A DNA stretch of 32,760 bases from Thermodesulfovibrio sp. Its GTDB lineage: Bacteria > Nitrospirota > Thermodesulfovibrionia > Thermodesulfovibrionales > UBA6898. Of the stretch, positions 10,347 through 24,957 are shown one piece after another (positions within the stretch are counted from its first letter, which is position 1; every line of letters begins with the position of its first letter). Under the pieces are notes generated by a model. It saw nothing but the letters and a program-made list of their open reading frames with translations. It did no database searches and had not been told where the DNA came from. The translations under genes and the position numbers were made by a program. The DNA lies in NCBI GenBank assembly GCA_013824615.1, contig PNOC01000041.1, positions 1 to 32,760 on the forward strand, written 5' to 3'.

Positions 10347-10375
10347 AAGCCGTGAGAATGGCCTGTACACGGGGC
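10342..10375 (-). terminator. Probable intrinsic terminator of the degenerate GGDEF gene
   Basis: Read on the minus strand, CCGTG (10368-10372) pairs with CACGG (10350-10354) around a 13-base loop, followed closely by seven T (10342-10348). The stem is short, but the position just after the gene ending at 10398 fits. Confidence 0.45.
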
Positions 10376-10397: not shown

Positions 10398-10985
10398 TCA
10401 CAACAAGACCATTACCTCATCGCCACCTTCAACCTCGTCGCAGGCCTTACTCATTGCACGGATCAGAAGAGTCTGTTCTGTTTCTATCGGCCTGGCAGCA
10501 ATAACAGCCACCAGTCTGATAAGGCCGACATGCACCATTTCCCCGTTTCTGGAAAATGAGAGCGTGGTCTTGTTCTGCAGATCCTCTTTGACATAGTATG
10601 TCTGAATCTGCCTATTAAAGTCCTTCTGAACCTCACGCATGTGTTTCTCAATATTTCTGGTTTCGCACATGACGACAAAATCATGCGTGCTCGCTGTCCC
10701 GACAAAGCAGCCGGCACAATGGTCACAGGATGTCTTCAGAATAGCGGCCGCCCACTGTATAATATCGGCATGCTTGTCCGGACCGTATTTGATAAGGTAT
10801 GGATGTATGTTCGCTATACGGACATAGACAATGGCGTACTTGCCAAGTTTTGGATAGACCTCCTGCAGCTTACTGAGAATCGCCGCCTTATCCGGCAGTC
10901 CTGTGAGAAAATCCGGCCAGAGATAAGGATTCTCCTGCCTTTTGTGAAGATCCCGAATGTATTTTTTTGCTTCAGCTATGCTCAT
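10398..10985 (-). CDS. Degenerate GGDEF-domain protein with a Cys-x2-Cys-x2-Cys cluster
   Basis: A 195-residue cytosolic protein resembling a GGDEF domain: DFLTGLPDKAAI (25-36) matches the conserved D-x-LTGLPN start, and AIVYVRIANIHPYLIKYG (51-68) matches the following strand and helix. The catalytic GGDEF is missing; the equivalent loop reads ASTHDF (98-103). The segment that usually carries the RxxD inhibitory site instead has Cys87, Cys90 and Cys93 (CDHCAGC), with Cys107 nearby. I infer no cyclase activity and a sensory, metal-binding or scaffold role. TTG 10986-10988 precedes the ATG in frame, but ATG 10983-10985 follows a G-rich ribosome site. It has its own promoter and probable terminator. 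Confidence 0.75.
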   Translation of the reverse strand: MSIAEAKKYIRDLHKRQENPYLWPDFLTGLPDKAAILSKLQEVYPKLGKYAIVYVRIANIHPYLIKYGPDKHADIIQWAAAILKTSCDHCAGCFVGTASTHDFVVMCETRNIEKHMREVQKDFNRQIQTYYVKEDLQNKTTLSFSRNGEMVHVGLIRLVAVIAARPIETEQTLLIRAMSKACDEVEGGDEVMVLL

Positions 10986-11015
10986 CAAATCCCCCCTGAT
11001 CTCATGTTTCCTACA

Positions 11016-11045
11016 GTTTTACCGCATCGGACTGCAGACTGTCAA
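11016..11045 (-). promoter_or_regulatory. Promoter of the degenerate GGDEF gene
   Basis: On the minus strand a perfect TTGACA (11040-11045) is followed after 18 bases by TAAAAC (11016-11021, 4/6). The predicted start of transcription gives a leader of roughly 25 bases holding the GGGGGG ribosome site. Confidence 0.5.
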
Positions 11046-11078
11046 CCTGAAGTTTTCATTATCAGATCACCTGAACGC

Positions 11079-11108
11079 AAAAAAGGGGTAGCAGAGCGCT
11101 ACCCCTTT
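11079..11108 (-). terminator. Strong intrinsic terminator of ppdK
   Basis: AAAGGGGTAGC (11082-11092) and GCTACCCCTTT (11098-11108) are perfect 11-base complements with a five-base loop. On the minus strand the stem runs into a T-tract, 24 bases past the ppdK stop. A textbook rho-independent terminator. Confidence 0.92.
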
Positions 11109-11132
11109 CGAGGAAATATTAGAATTTTGTTG

Positions 11133-13868
11133 TTATTTCTTTTTAGCCGTCTTTTGTTTCAGTGCCGCCTGAGCAGCAGCAAAACGGGCAATTGGCACCC
11201 TGAATGGCGAGCAACTGACATAGTTGAGGCCGAGAGTGTGGCAGAACTCAACCGACTTCGGTTCTCCGCCGTGCTCCCCGCATATGCCAATTTTAAGGTC
11301 CTTCTTCACCTTTCTGCCCTTTTCTGCTGCCATTTTCATAAATGATCCTACACCGCTCTGATCAATGGTAATAAAAGGGTCATCCTTGAGTATGCCGTTT
11401 TCGACATAAAAAGGCAGGAACCTGCCGGCATCATCACGGGAAAGACCGTATACGGTTTGTGTCAGATCATTGGTGCCGAAGGAATAAAACTCTGCCACAG
11501 TCGCAATCTCGTCCGCGGTAACACAGGCCCGGGGCAGTTCGATCATCGTGCCGACGGTATAGGCCACTTTCACCCCGGCCTCCTTCTGGACTCTCGCTGC
11601 CGTGTCCACCACCACCTTTTTCATGGCAATGAGCTCATTGACATGACCGACCAACGGAATCATGATCTCAGGGCTTACCTTCACTTTCTGTTTGGTAAGC
11701 AGACAGGCAGCCTCCATGATAGCCTGAGCCTGCATTTCGTAAATCTCCGGGAAGGTCACTCCAAGACGGCAGCCGCGATGGCCAAGCATCGGATTGAACT
11801 CATGCAGGGATTTGTTTTTTGCATTCAGTCTGTCAAAAGGCACACCCATATCCCTGGCAAGGTCATGCAGCTCTTTATCTGTATGCGGAAGAAACTCATG
11901 CAGCGGCGGGTCCAGAAGACGTATCGTAACCGGGTGTCCGGCCATCGCTTTGAAGATGCCGGTGAAGTCAGCTTTCTGGAAAGGAAGCAGCTTTGCGAGT
12001 GCCTTTTTCCTGCCTTCAATAGTATCCGAGAGGATCATCTCACGCACTGCCTTAATACGGTCCGGACCGAAAAACATATGTTCTGTCCTGCAAAGGCCGA
12101 TACCTTCTGCGCCAAAGTTCCGCGCAGTTGTTGCATCGTCCGGGGTATCCGCATTCGTCCTGACCTTGAGCGTCCGGAAGGTGTCCGCCCATTTCATCAT
12201 CTGCTTATACCAGGCATTGTTTTCCGGATCTGCAGGCAGAAGGTCAAGCTGCCCCGCATAGACGCGGCCTTTGGTCCCATTAAGGGTTATCCAGTCGCCC
12301 TCTTTCAGTACATGCCCGTTGACACGTATCTCCTTTTTGGCAAGATTGATATCGAGAGCCGAGCAGCCCACAATGCAGCATTTGCCCCAGCCGCGGGCAA
12401 CCAGCGCAGCGTGGCTGGTCATACCACCCTTCGCCGTCAGAATCGCTTCGGCAGCATGCATGCCATGCACATCTTCCGGTGAAGTCTCGGTCCTCACCAG
12501 AATTACTTTTTCACCTTTTTTTGCACGAGCCTCCGCATCGTCAGCCGTCAGAACGATCCGCCCCACAGCGCCTCCCGGCCCGGCAGGAAGCCCTTTGCCC
12601 AGTTCCACCGCCTTTTTCTCGGCAACCGGAGCAACACTCGGGTGGAGCAGTTCATCCAGCTGTTCAGGCTTGACCCGCAGTATAGCCGTCTCTTTGGTGA
12701 TGAGCTTTTCTCCTGCCATTTCAACTGCCATACGGATGGCGGCCTGGCCGTTCCTCTTGCCCACCCTGGTCTGAAGCATCCAGAGATGCCCGTCTTCGAT
12801 CGTAAACTCAATATCCTGCATGTCGCTGTAATGCTTCTCCAGCTTTCTCTGTATTGCATAAAGTTCCTTATAGAGCTTCGGCATGCTTTCCTCGAGCGAA
12901 GGCAGGTGTCTTGTGTCCGCAGTTTTTCCTGCCTTGTTCACCGGGTTTGGAGTCCGAATCCCGGCAACGACGTCCTCTCCCTGGGCATTGGGCAGCCACT
13001 CGCCGAAAAATATGTTTTCCCCTGTGGCCGGATTCCTGGTAAAGGCTACCCCGGTTGCAGAGCTGTCACCGGTATTGCCGAAGACCATTGACTGGACATT
13101 AACCGCAGTCCCCCAATCCTCAGGTATCTTCTCGATCCTGCGGTAGGATATGGCACGCTTGCCCATCCAGGACTGAAACACCGCGCCAATACCACCCCAG
13201 AGCTGGTCCTTTGGGTTATCAGGAAACTCCTTCTTGAGGGTGTTCCTGATAATCACCTTGAATTCTTCACAGAGAAGCTTCAGGTCATCGACTGTCAAAT
13301 CAGTATCTGTTTTGTATCCCTTCTTCTTCTTGACTACATCCATGGCATGCTCAAGCTTATGGCGGATGCCCTGCCCTTCCTCTGGCTCGAACCCGGCAGC
13401 CTTCTCCATGACAACATCAGAATACATCATCATCAGACGACGGTAAGCGTCGTAGACAAAACGCTCGTTGTTGGTTTTTTTGACCAGGGCCGGAATGGTT
13501 TTTGACGTAAGGCCGACATTCAGGACCGTCTCCATCATACCGGGCATGGAACTGCGTGCTCCGGAACGCACCGACATCAGCAACGGATTCACCGCGTCAC
13601 CGAATTTCTTGCCCATGATCTTCTCAACGCGCCCTATGGCTGCGTCAACCTGTGCGGCAAGCTCCTGCGGGTATTTGCGGTTATTTTCGTAATACCGGGT
13701 ACAGACTTCAGTCGTGATCGTAAATCCGGCAGGCACCGGAATGCCAAGATTTGTCATTTCGGCAAGATTAGCCCCCTTGCCGCCGAGCAGATTTTTCATC
13801 TCCGATTTGCCATCGGCCTTGCCCGCACCAAAAAAATACACATACTTTTTCACAGAAGTCCTGGACAT
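11133..13868 (-). CDS. ppdK: Pyruvate, phosphate dikinase
   Basis: Interconverts pyruvate, ATP and phosphate with phosphoenolpyruvate, AMP and pyrophosphate. It serves gluconeogenesis or pyrophosphate-linked glycolysis. The 911 residues match the family. In order: the N-terminal ATP-grasp domain (GGKGANLAEM, SVRSGARSSMPGMMETVLN), the swivelling phosphohistidine domain with catalytic His486 in GGMTSHAALVARG, and the C-terminal PEP/pyruvate barrel with GFGTNDLTQ-like FGTNDLTQ and catalytic Cys863 in GICGEHGG. GGGAGGG-type purines precede the ATG. The gene stands alone, with its own strong terminator; the 123-base upstream spacer is AT-rich and should hold its promoter, but no hexamer pair is convincing. 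Confidence 0.98.
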   Translation of the reverse strand: MSRTSVKKYVYFFGAGKADGKSEMKNLLGGKGANLAEMTNLGIPVPAGFTITTEVCTRYYENNRKYPQELAAQVDAAIGRVEKIMGKKFGDAVNPLLMSVRSGARSSMPGMMETVLNVGLTSKTIPALVKKTNNERFVYDAYRRLMMMYSDVVMEKAAGFEPEEGQGIRHKLEHAMDVVKKKKGYKTDTDLTVDDLKLLCEEFKVIIRNTLKKEFPDNPKDQLWGGIGAVFQSWMGKRAISYRRIEKIPEDWGTAVNVQSMVFGNTGDSSATGVAFTRNPATGENIFFGEWLPNAQGEDVVAGIRTPNPVNKAGKTADTRHLPSLEESMPKLYKELYAIQRKLEKHYSDMQDIEFTIEDGHLWMLQTRVGKRNGQAAIRMAVEMAGEKLITKETAILRVKPEQLDELLHPSVAPVAEKKAVELGKGLPAGPGGAVGRIVLTADDAEARAKKGEKVILVRTETSPEDVHGMHAAEAILTAKGGMTSHAALVARGWGKCCIVGCSALDINLAKKEIRVNGHVLKEGDWITLNGTKGRVYAGQLDLLPADPENNAWYKQMMKWADTFRTLKVRTNADTPDDATTARNFGAEGIGLCRTEHMFFGPDRIKAVREMILSDTIEGRKKALAKLLPFQKADFTGIFKAMAGHPVTIRLLDPPLHEFLPHTDKELHDLARDMGVPFDRLNAKNKSLHEFNPMLGHRGCRLGVTFPEIYEMQAQAIMEAACLLTKQKVKVSPEIMIPLVGHVNELIAMKKVVVDTAARVQKEAGVKVAYTVGTMIELPRACVTADEIATVAEFYSFGTNDLTQTVYGLSRDDAGRFLPFYVENGILKDDPFITIDQSGVGSFMKMAAEKGRKVKKDLKIGICGEHGGEPKSVEFCHTLGLNYVSCSPFRVPIARFAAAQAALKQKTAKKK

Positions 13869-19866: not shown

Positions 19867-21276
19867 ATGAATTCAGAAAGTCCAGATAATGTCACGAACC
19901 GTGCAGGATTCAGGGGGACAAAGGAGATTGCTTTCTTCACCCTGGATCTCATGCCGGATCCGTTCATTGTGTTGAATTGCGACGGGACGATCTATGATCT
20001 GAACCAGAGTTGTGCGGATTTTATCGGGATCAGAAAAGCGGATGTTCTCAACAAGTCCTTCGCTGATATAGAATCTCTGAATATATTCTGTGAGAAGGTA
20101 CCGGAAGTTTTTACAAAAGCTGCCGCGGACTTTGACCTGGTTATTTTTCACAACAGGCATATTGAGGTCTCTCTTCTTCCCTTCAGCACGGGTGATGGCA
20201 CAAAGCTATTGCGGATTGTGTTGAAGGACATCTCCAATTATGTGACCCTGGAGCAGGAACTTCTGAAGAGGAACAAGGAACTTATCATTATCAATACGCT
20301 TTCGAGCGCTTTCATCTCATCGGATAATCTGGACCACGTAGTCGAGAACCTGCTCCATAAGGTTTTGCTGGTTACCGACTTCAGCACGGGCTGGCTCATG
20401 GTTCGTGACGGAAACTTTTTTCTTTTTAAAACCGGTAAAAACCTTACTCCCGCATTCATTGCAGCAGCTGAACAAGGCGGACTGCAAAAACTCTGCAGTG
20501 ATATAATTCTGAGCAGCGAACCGCTGTACATCGCGGAAGCCGTAGAGATTGCAAAGGATTCCACACTCACGGATGAGGGCATTTCATTTCTGGCGGCAGT
20601 TCCGCTCGTTTTCAATCAGGAGGTCACCGGAATGCTCTTTCTGGCCTTAAAGACGGATACAGCCTATGCCTTCAATTTTGATTTTGCTGCTCTGCTCTCT
20701 CTGGTAGGAAACCAAATATCGATGATCCTCGACAAAATACGACTATTTCAGGAAACGAGACGGCTTTCGATTACGGACGGATTGACCGGACTCTTCAACA
20801 GCCGGTATTTCTATAAGCAGCTCGAAGCCGAGATTGCTCGGTCTAACCGCTATGGTCATTCATTTTCTTTGATCATGTTCGATATCGACAGTTTCAAAAA
20901 GCTGAATGATACCTATGGTCACCAGGCCGGCGATGATGTCCTGGTTGAACTTGCCAGAATACTGCAGTCTGCCTCACGGGAGGCCGATATCGCCGTGCGG
21001 TATGGCGGCGAAGAGTTTGTCATAGTCCTGCCCAATACGTCCGAGGCGGATACGGTCTATCTGGCGGACAGGATTCGGGACTCGGTCGAGCAAACCGCTT
21101 TTCTGCAAGACCTGACCGGTGGCATCACGATAACGTTAAGCGGTGGGGTAGCGTCCTATCCTATGAATGCCGGTGACATCAAATCTCTGCTCAATGCTGC
21201 AGACACAGCTCTGTATGCAGCAAAGACTTCCGGCAAAAACAGGGTGGTCTGCTTCAAAGGACACATTCGTGTCTGA
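19867..21276 (+). CDS. Diguanylate cyclase with PAS and GAF sensor domains
   Basis: A 469-residue soluble signalling enzyme that should make cyclic di-GMP from two GTP. A PAS-like domain covers about 22-130 (LMPDPFIVLNCDGTIYDLNQS), a GAF-like domain about 141-292, and the GGDEF domain about 300-465. The active-site motif GGEEF is at 380-384, preceded by FDIDSFKKLNDTYGHQAGD. An RxxD product-inhibition site (Arg371 to Asp374) is present, so feedback control is likely. No membrane helix is seen. It lacks a clear Shine-Dalgarno and starts in AT-rich DNA. The downstream oxidoreductase gene begins ten bases after its stop; a PilZ protein that could bind c-di-GMP is encoded at the end of the same run. 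Confidence 0.93.
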   Translation: MNSESPDNVTNRAGFRGTKEIAFFTLDLMPDPFIVLNCDGTIYDLNQSCADFIGIRKADVLNKSFADIESLNIFCEKVPEVFTKAAADFDLVIFHNRHIEVSLLPFSTGDGTKLLRIVLKDISNYVTLEQELLKRNKELIIINTLSSAFISSDNLDHVVENLLHKVLLVTDFSTGWLMVRDGNFFLFKTGKNLTPAFIAAAEQGGLQKLCSDIILSSEPLYIAEAVEIAKDSTLTDEGISFLAAVPLVFNQEVTGMLFLALKTDTAYAFNFDFAALLSLVGNQISMILDKIRLFQETRRLSITDGLTGLFNSRYFYKQLEAEIARSNRYGHSFSLIMFDIDSFKKLNDTYGHQAGDDVLVELARILQSASREADIAVRYGGEEFVIVLPNTSEADTVYLADRIRDSVEQTAFLQDLTGGITITLSGGVASYPMNAGDIKSLLNAADTALYAAKTSGKNRVVCFKGHIRV

Positions 21277-23487: not shown

Positions 23488-24302
23488 TGCAGCAGTATTC
23501 CGTGGTCCATGCCCTGTACCTGTCTTTTTTTTCCCGTGCTCTTTACCGGGATGTGGCCGTGCGCTGGAAGGGGGTCTGCCTTGTCTATCTGCTGGGAGTG
23601 CTCGCTCTCTGCACTATTCCGGGTACGCTTCGGATGCAGGCAGATCTCGGCGCCTGGCTGAATGATCAGGCAGCAGGGTATATACGGCAATTGCCGGACA
23701 TAACCATAACCAAGGGGGTTCTTTCAGTCGATGCGGAAGAACCTTACCGCATCCTTGACCCAACGACGGGAGAGCCGGTTGTTATACTTGATTCCACCGG
23801 CTCGGTAAAATCTCTTGAAGGCACAAAAGCGGTTGCGCTTTTTACAAAAACAGCCCTGATCGTCCGGAAGAATGAAACAGAAACCCGGGCCTTTAGTCTC
23901 TCTGATCTGGGCGGTGAGACGATGACCATCGGAAGAAGAAACGCTTATGACCTTCTGGAGGCATTCGTCGACATATTTCCGGTTATTCTTTATCCCTTTG
24001 CTCTATTCATTTCATTGCTGCTTTGGAGCACCGTGGTGCTGGTTTTTGCCCTCGCGGGCAGACTTTACGCCCGGCGGCTTGCCCTTGCTCTGGACGGACG
24101 ATCTGTTGTCAGGATAGCGGTTATCGCCCTCACCCCGGCCCTCCTGAGTGGAGCGCTGATGACAACAGCAGGGGCATCGCTCCCTTATTGGTGGCTTGTG
24201 ACTGTACTCATTTCTCTGGCCTATATGTTCTACGGAATACAGGCAAATGTTTCATTACCAACACAGGAGTCTTCTGATGAAAAAGATACTGATCGTAGGT
24301 AA
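23487..24302 (+). CDS. DUF1189-family membrane protein
   Basis: A 271-residue inner-membrane protein of unknown function. The N-terminal YLSFFSRALYRDVAVRWKG with a first helix at about 29-46 is typical of DUF1189. An extracytoplasmic domain follows (about 47-160) with the motif PDITITKGVLSVDAEEPYRI and VILDSTGSV. Three to four helices lie between about 162 and 255, and the tail is polar. ATG 23487 overlaps the lspA stop; a GTG one codon earlier is an alternative. The 3' end overlaps the receiver-PilZ gene by 26 bases, so the two probably act together. A sensor or regulator of envelope state is a guess from topology only. Confidence 0.8.
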   Translation: MQQYSVVHALYLSFFSRALYRDVAVRWKGVCLVYLLGVLALCTIPGTLRMQADLGAWLNDQAAGYIRQLPDITITKGVLSVDAEEPYRILDPTTGEPVVILDSTGSVKSLEGTKAVALFTKTALIVRKNETETRAFSLSDLGGETMTIGRRNAYDLLEAFVDIFPVILYPFALFISLLLWSTVVLVFALAGRLYARRLALALDGRSVVRIAVIALTPALLSGALMTTAGASLPYWWLVTVLISLAYMFYGIQANVSLPTQESSDEKDTDRR

Positions 24303-24957
24303 ACTCTTTACGGTAACGGAGCGAAGTACCGGTCTCATGAACAGGTCTGATCTCATCGTGCTGACCGCTCCGTCAGCGCAGGATGCCCTGGAGATGCACC
24401 GGCAGGAGAAGATGGACATGGTCATAATCGATCTGCAGATGCCCGGGATGAGCCCGGAGGCCTTCTGTGCTGCAGTACGACAGGATGCCGAAACCAGGAC
24501 GACCTCGATCCTTATCGCCTGCGGAGATGTGGCTGTCGAGATAGACCGTGCCCTGCGGTGCAAGGCAAATGATTATATTACAAAACCGGTTGATGCAGAG
24601 CTTCTCTTGCTGAAAGCCGGCCAGCTCCTGAATATTTCCCAACGAAAGAGTTGCCGGGTATTGTTGAAGATCTCGATTGACGGCAAGACATCCGGGACAT
24701 CTTTTTTCTGCACTTCACAGAACATAAGCGCCTCCGGCATGCTGATCAAGACAGAAAAACTGCTCGAAAAGGATGAGAAGATCTCCTGCTCCTTCTATCT
24801 TCCGGGCTCTGAGCGGATTGTCGCCGATGCCATAGTGATCAGAGCCCTTCAGGAAGCCGACGGGACCTGGCAGTACGGCATCCATTTCAGCAGCCTGAGC
24901 CCGGTATACCGCGCGGCTATTGAAGGCTTTATCATGGCGAGAGAAAAGACAGGATAA
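24277..24957 (+). CDS. Pseudo-receiver plus PilZ domain protein
   Basis: A 226-residue cytosolic two-domain protein. The receiver-like domain (about 1-118) keeps the phospho-acceptor position Asp52 (VIIDLQMPGM) and Lys103 (YITKPVD). It lacks the N-terminal acidic pair, where Gly8-Lys9 stand, and the switch Thr/Ser is in an unusual ILIACGD context. Metal binding and normal phosphorylation are therefore doubtful. The PilZ domain (about 121-225) has RKSCR (123-127, RxxxR) and NISASG (149-154, N-x-S-x-x-G), the c-di-GMP-binding motifs. CAGGAGT (24264-24270) supports the ATG at 24277. It closes the cluster that begins with a diguanylate cyclase gene. Confidence 0.88.
   Translation: MKKILIVGKLFTVTERSTGLMNRSDLIVLTAPSAQDALEMHRQEKMDMVIIDLQMPGMSPEAFCAAVRQDAETRTTSILIACGDVAVEIDRALRCKANDYITKPVDAELLLLKAGQLLNISQRKSCRVLLKISIDGKTSGTSFFCTSQNISASGMLIKTEKLLEKDEKISCSFYLPGSERIVADAIVIRALQEADGTWQYGIHFSSLSPVYRAAIEGFIMAREKTG

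Follow-up and report, generated by a model that had tools for sequence, protein, structure and literature searches.

A 195-residue protein encoded in the 32,760-nucleotide stretch of Thermodesulfovibrio sp. DNA analysed here (the window; contig 41 in a genome of 3.6 Mb) is predicted to adopt a GGDEF-type fold and, judging by its residues, is apparently a catalytically dead GGDEF scaffold. On balance, we favour a soluble, single-domain pseudo-diguanylate-cyclase that would use c-di-GMP by none of the known sites and would act by binding, most likely to a partner protein. The gene occupies positions 10398–10985 of the minus strand, from an ATG at 10985 to a stop codon that ends at 10398. This ATG is the likely start because starts in relatives align with it and a Shine–Dalgarno-like GGGGGG lies upstream (AGGGGGG, 10991–10997, minus strand; read directly and compared with the upstream regions of relatives). 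Among 44 relatives, for which a script chose the nearest start, the start codon aligned with the window's ATG in 42 and fell one codon earlier in 2; the mechanically called open reading frame likewise starts one codon before the ATG, with TTG. Three motifs described in a first-pass annotation of the window were all recovered: the fold start DFLTGLPDK (residues 26–34), ASTHDF at the catalytic motif (residues 98–103) and a C-x2-C-x2-C cluster (C87, C90 and C93).

Homology of the window protein to GGDEF domains is real but lies under Pfam detection. Pfam PF00990 gave no match to it at E ≤ 1, and the gathering score was not reached; GGDEF matches at E ≤ 1 were found in 15 of 44 relatives (best E, 7.4e-5), and a family profile matched the GGDEF structure 3mtk (E = 1.1e-4), with THDF aligned to the GGDEF position. 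NCBIfam returned no match for the window protein and, over the 53 family members, scattered weak matches, the commonest to c-di-GMP proteins (DosP in 7 members, GGDEF in 5). An AlphaFold2 model from 53 aligned members reached a pLDDT of 91.7 and a pTM of 0.88, and its weakest block, residues 21–30, scored 76. The best 50 of 93 Foldseek matches at E ≤ 0.001 were all GGDEF proteins (best E, 3.2e-8), some recognized by title and others as known members of the superfamily. Foldseek rmsd values were large among the matches listed (3.8–12.5 Å); VIA-align against 3ign, the top Foldseek match, gave a Z score of 16.9 and an rmsd of 2.8 Å over 148 residues. A Pfam HisKin-conflict match (E = 0.059) and a PDB match to 6h3x (E = 0.23) fell below significance and were dropped.

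Within the LTGLP motif (residues 27–31; 10893–10907, minus strand), where the GGDEF fold starts, T28, G29, L30 and P31 are invariant in all 53 members. The catalytic residues of GGDEF enzymes appear to be lost across the aligned family. Residues were mapped by hhalign against one canonical template, the GGEEF domain encoded at 19867–21276, at a probability of 6% and an E value of 0.0059; at the signature this alignment agrees with HMMER alignments to 3mtk and to canonical paralogues. On this low-probability mapping, the column of the first Mg-ligand Asp holds R or K at position 56 in 53/53 members and that of the second metal ligand holds H101 in 53/53; in the same census the columns of the guanine-binding Asn and Asp hold L, V or I at position 64 and A, V, T or S at position 73. 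The metal- and guanine-binding roles of these columns are taken from PleD. THDF (residues 100–103; 10677–10688, minus strand) replaces the last four letters of GGDEF, with T in 48/53 members, H101 in 53/53, D or E in 50/53 (Gly at position 102 in the other 3) and F or Y in 53/53. The GG of the signature occurs in none of the 53 members, nor does a Gly at its second position. An intact RxxD I-site is absent as well, with R at position 90 in 1/53 and D at position 93 in 0/53. H72 and H101, both present in 53/53, map onto what were the GHxxGD and GGDEF loops.

Ordinary c-di-GMP components share the window with the degenerate gene. The template domain belongs to a canonical PAS-GAF-GGEEF cyclase (19867–21276, plus strand) whose I-site reads READ, and a receiver-PilZ protein is encoded at 24247–24957 (plus strand).

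Across the genomes searched, the family is discrete and confined to one Nitrospirota class. A search of 395 Nitrospirota genomes returned 48 matches of at least 245 bits in 47 genomes, and the next match scored 73.9 bits; 45 carrier genomes belong to the window's order, 2 lie elsewhere in its class and none falls in another class. Among near relatives, 43 of 101 genomes carry the gene, at 44 loci. Of 52 relatives from named records, all but one, titled 'Bacterium BMS3Bbin05', carry the name Nitrospirota, Nitrospirae, Nitrospiraceae or Thermodesulfovibrionales. Since the named-genome scan used two peptide patterns and the whole-genome search covered one phylum, Nitrospirota, divergent relatives elsewhere may escape. 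Among the papers listed in literature searches, none has a title or abstract opening that points to this family. Thirteen residues are invariant in 53/53 members (Y9, L13, Q17, P20, W23, P24, K66, Y67, H72, W78, H101, Y131 and D135), of which Y9, L13, Q17, P20, W23 and P24 mark a strongly conserved N-terminal helix and linker. Ratios of dN/dS ran from 0.059 to 0.354 in 30 pairs with dS < 1.6 (drawn from 35 of the 53 sequences); only two of these pairs include the window sequence, at 0.231 and 0.236 with dS near 1.5. The gene is therefore maintained, as the first-pass annotation had proposed when it called it not decaying.

The closest relatives by sequence that we saw beyond the family are canonical in signature. 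Nine such hits, picked by hand, carry GGDDF (8/9) or GGDDY (1/9) and share with the family a common FVGxxGGDDF frame (for example, L182, L184 and L190). A Y...D stretch after the third helix is also common to both, including Y131 and D135, and the Trp of W78 recurs in 3 of the 9. Unlike the family, these paralogues keep the signature; L182, a 441-residue HAMP-GGDDF protein of the window's own genome, adds a HAMP domain and a 4HB-like N-terminal sensor part that scores just below the Pfam cut-off. A canonical motif in close relatives, which the first-pass annotation had counted against its proposal, is thus absent within the family and present in the paralogues outside it. The RxxD motif is missing in all nine paralogues (by eye, counted from GG). 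Because it is already gone there, loss of the I-site probably preceded both the gain of the cysteines and the loss of the GGDEF signature. This comparison does not support the earlier idea of cysteines replacing an inhibitory site.

The cysteines belong to one clade. C87, C90 and C93 (10707–10727, minus strand; 53-member census and hhalign alignment) occur together in 13/53 members, C90 occurs without the others in 6, C87 alone in 1, and 33 have none, so we rejected the triad as the family's defining feature. An ungapped count from the signature puts C90 and C93 on the R and D of the canonical I-site, and the gapped hhalign alignment puts them one or two residues off. A tree that excluded the cysteine columns unites the 13 triad members in a single clade (support 95/89) inside a larger group of 20, of which 6 have C90 only. 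The covariation that the first-pass annotation proposed to look for is near all-or-none, with 7/53 members carrying a single cysteine; the random substitutions that it counted against its proposal are seen outside the clade (A, S, G, Y or V, among others) and not inside it. Within the clade, C87, C90, C93 and a fourth cysteine, C107 (10665–10667, minus strand; 17/40 elsewhere), are invariant in 13/13 members, and positions 88, 89, 91 and 92 each hold 3 to 6 residue types. This invariance is suggestive and not proof, because 63 of 195 columns are invariant within the clade. C182 is found in 12/13 clade members and 39/40 others. In the AlphaFold2 model, predicted strands 94–97 and 102–107 flank the THDF turn, which would bring C107 close to C93. 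All 13 clade members thus carry the four cysteines in two segments that this predicted geometry places nearby. A candidate Cys4 site suggests itself for the window's clade only, and a metal or redox function for it is plausible.

Most members share a promoter. Upstream of the window gene, the operator-like AACTTCAGGTTGACA (11040–11054, minus strand), an imperfect palindrome with consensus AACTTnAAGTT, is fused to a −35 hexamer and is conserved upstream of the gene; a putative −10 element (11016–11022, minus strand), read directly, is TAAAAC with a spacer of 18 or GTAAAA with a spacer of 17. The pattern AAYTTNADGTTGACA lies upstream of the gene exactly in 31/53 members and with at most two mismatches in 41/53 (one of the 53 upstream regions has only 38 bases), compared with 0/418 upstream regions of neighbouring genes. 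At two mismatches it is missing from a tree group of eight (L064, L065, L067, L068, L070, L071, L073 and L095). A plain promoter consensus scan missed the gene's site and listed 2 sites, both on the plus strand, where 1.8 were expected; conservation nonetheless backs the claim, made in the first-pass annotation, that the gene has its own promoter. In the f4 group (L083, L084, L086, L089 and L096), the ATG has no clear Shine–Dalgarno sequence and a TTTTGGTTTTCTA-like stretch is conserved a few bases upstream, which might be an extended −10 and would suggest leaderless transcripts.

The operator is not limited to this gene. A narrower pattern, AAYTTNARGTTGACA, had 102 exact matches in 101 relatives against 2 for a reversed control, but part of the 102 are ordinary promoters because the control ignores the frequency of TTGACA at promoters, and some lie inside coding sequence (for example, L140, L152 and L156; by eye). 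By hand count, 25 matches precede the focal gene (G020 at a contig end) and 77 lie elsewhere, of which we viewed 68, 66 in one set plus 2. The window's genome has three exact operator matches: before the focal gene, before cbiM (Co/Ni uptake) and before a gene for an exported 386-residue protein. By eye, cbiM is followed by the rest of the transporter and the exported-protein gene by an apparent ABC transporter. Many of the 66 viewed non-focal sites in relatives precede exported redox-type proteins. Single representatives scored above curated cut-offs as an ExtKL-type multihaem cytochrome, a cytochrome d1-like propeller, NosL (the third gene of one cluster), C_GCAxxG_C_C and CbiM; a split-Soret cytochrome match, in one representative, stayed below its curated cut-off (117 of 400 bits). 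In aggregate, this sequence pattern suggests that the GGDEF-like gene may sit in a respiration- or metal-linked regulon.

Other features of these sites were recorded. The operator-like AACTTnAAGTTGACA is found at 11040–11054 (minus strand) of the window and at C19:17274 and C26:26502 of the same genome (L106 and L107), and it recurs in relatives before cbiM, exported cytochrome-like and related genes. Exported proteins of 330–400 residues with a GHGGH-like stretch (variant in L143 and L171), possibly of more than one family, follow the operator at 15 of the 66 viewed non-focal sites. They include L164:1429–2580 (minus strand) and L106:3951–5108 (plus strand), which had nothing over cut-off in Pfam and nothing in NCBIfam; further sites are L112, L122–L124, L135, L143, L150, L159, L165, L168, L171, L172, L177 and L178. 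At 12 of the 66 sites the first gene after the operator encodes a small (88–108 residue), exported-looking LDVC-like protein, as at L162:2407–2688 (minus strand; no family match) and at L113, L115, L117, L119, L120, L126, L147, L169, L170, L179 and L181. In 7 of 11 legible cases the next gene encodes a similar Tat-signal protein (by eye).

The most constant neighbour is the gene for pyruvate phosphate dikinase (PPDK; ppdK), identified by Pfam and neighbourhood comparison and located upstream at 11133–13868 (minus strand). In 32/53 loci it is the adjoining upstream gene and has the same orientation, and 5 of the 21 loci that have no adjoining PPDK gene have less than 1 kb of upstream contig. 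A hand tally of whole genomes gave adjacency in 31/43, distributed by family as 19/22 in f1, 8/8 in f4, 4/4 in f9, 0/6 in f7, 0/2 in f6 and 0/1 in f2; of the 12 non-adjacent genomes, one f1 case (G020) is probably split by a contig end. Co-transcription of the pair in the window is doubtful, since a terminator hairpin after PPDK (11081–11109, minus strand; −20 kcal/mol, z = −3.6) and the promoter appear to separate the genes. Strong hairpins were seen in many of the other intergenic stretches too (by eye). Downstream of the GGDEF-like gene there is a weak terminator-like site at 10364–10347, in a stretch that folds no better than shuffles (z = −0.27). The gene's own terminator, as the first-pass annotation had it, thus comes down to this weak site, and the strong hairpin lies upstream of the gene. 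We also asked whether the protein might replace the PPDK regulatory protein (PF03618) or work alongside it; that protein is present in 19/101 relatives, including the window's genome, and the idea was set aside because no pattern emerged (7/43 genomes with the GGDEF-like gene, 12/58 without).

Several explanations compete with a partner-binding scaffold. A regulator or assembly partner of PPDK would account for the adjacency and for a pair kept in f1, f4 and f9 although other neighbours differ. However, terminator and promoter stand between the two genes in the window, adjacency fails in f7, f6 and f2, and PPDK is present in 100/101 relatives whether or not the GGDEF-like protein is; we consider this role unlikely. 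The invariant H72 and H101 could instead mean a changed enzyme and not a dead one, in which these histidines and the mostly Asp or Glu residue 102 have turned the former nucleotide cleft into a different active site. The mapping of the histidines to the GHxxGD and GGDEF loop positions fits such a neofunctionalization. Position 102 is nevertheless Gly in three members, Y131 and D135 also occur in canonical paralogues, and nothing hints at a cofactor or substrate, which makes a new enzyme improbable in our estimation.

A third possibility, limited to the window's clade, is a metal-, Fe–S- or thiol-based Cys4 sensor on the GGDEF scaffold. Four cysteines invariant among variable neighbours, their stepwise single origin in the tree and an operator that recurs before cytochrome-like and Co/Ni-uptake genes all favour it, and we hold it as a serious if tentative option. 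Cys4 sensing cannot be the family's basic function because the 40/53 members without the full triad (33 of them without any of it) keep the other invariant residues. By comparison, we give hardly any credence to a decaying remnant of a diguanylate cyclase. The motif is lost and only 43 of 101 near-relative genomes keep the gene, but dN/dS of 0.06–0.35, on which we rejected decay, and the conserved promoter speak for upkeep, and the matched stretch has no internal stop at 44 loci. Four of 48 profile alignments run past a stop, as expected where the C terminus is shorter.

For the partner-binding scaffold, we infer two candidate docking surfaces from conservation: one made up of the N-terminal signalling helix and the NPxxWPDxLTGLP linker, the other the changed nucleotide cleft, where the histidines are invariant. 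What binds to such surfaces would most likely be a partner protein. The window's clade has acquired C87, C90 and C93 in the loop where the I-site used to be; because C107 sits opposite this loop on the predicted β-hairpin, all four might come together as a single Cys4 metal or thiol site, which may tune the same docking surface.

Precedents exist for degenerate GGDEF domains with new roles. Shewanella PdeB is reported to dock on HubP through the C-terminal and degenerate I-site region of its inactive GGDEF domain, and substitutions around that I-site weaken the contact (PMC9061725); our family is comparable to the extent that its sequences have lost the residues for catalysis. PdeB differs in that its GGDEF domain retains MANT-GTP binding and is part of a multidomain cyclase/phosphodiesterase, and the cited passages describe no cysteine cluster like that of the window's clade (PMC9061725). 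PelD similarly uses a degenerate GGDEF domain as a receptor, but it binds c-di-GMP through an intact RxxD I-site (PMC7112168). We rejected a PelD-type c-di-GMP receptor because the family has no RxxD and so cannot bind c-di-GMP by such a site.

These findings describe a stand-alone GGDEF-fold protein that lacks the signature, the I-site and a partner domain and is selected for in part of a bacterial class, with a conserved promoter in most members and a central metabolic enzyme adjoining in most genomes. Most degenerate GGDEF domains have been interpreted as receptors for c-di-GMP or as regulatory parts of larger proteins. With the 13-member clade, the states before and after a cysteine cluster was added to what is apparently a dead enzyme scaffold can be compared in nature. 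In the most elaborate scenario, which we consider a long shot, the I-site loop of a dead GGDEF domain turned into a Cys4 metal/redox switch in this clade, shares its operator with periplasmic cytochromes and Co/Ni uptake and controls a partner, possibly PPDK. If true, such a switch would let redox or metal status act on central carbon flow with no involvement of c-di-GMP.
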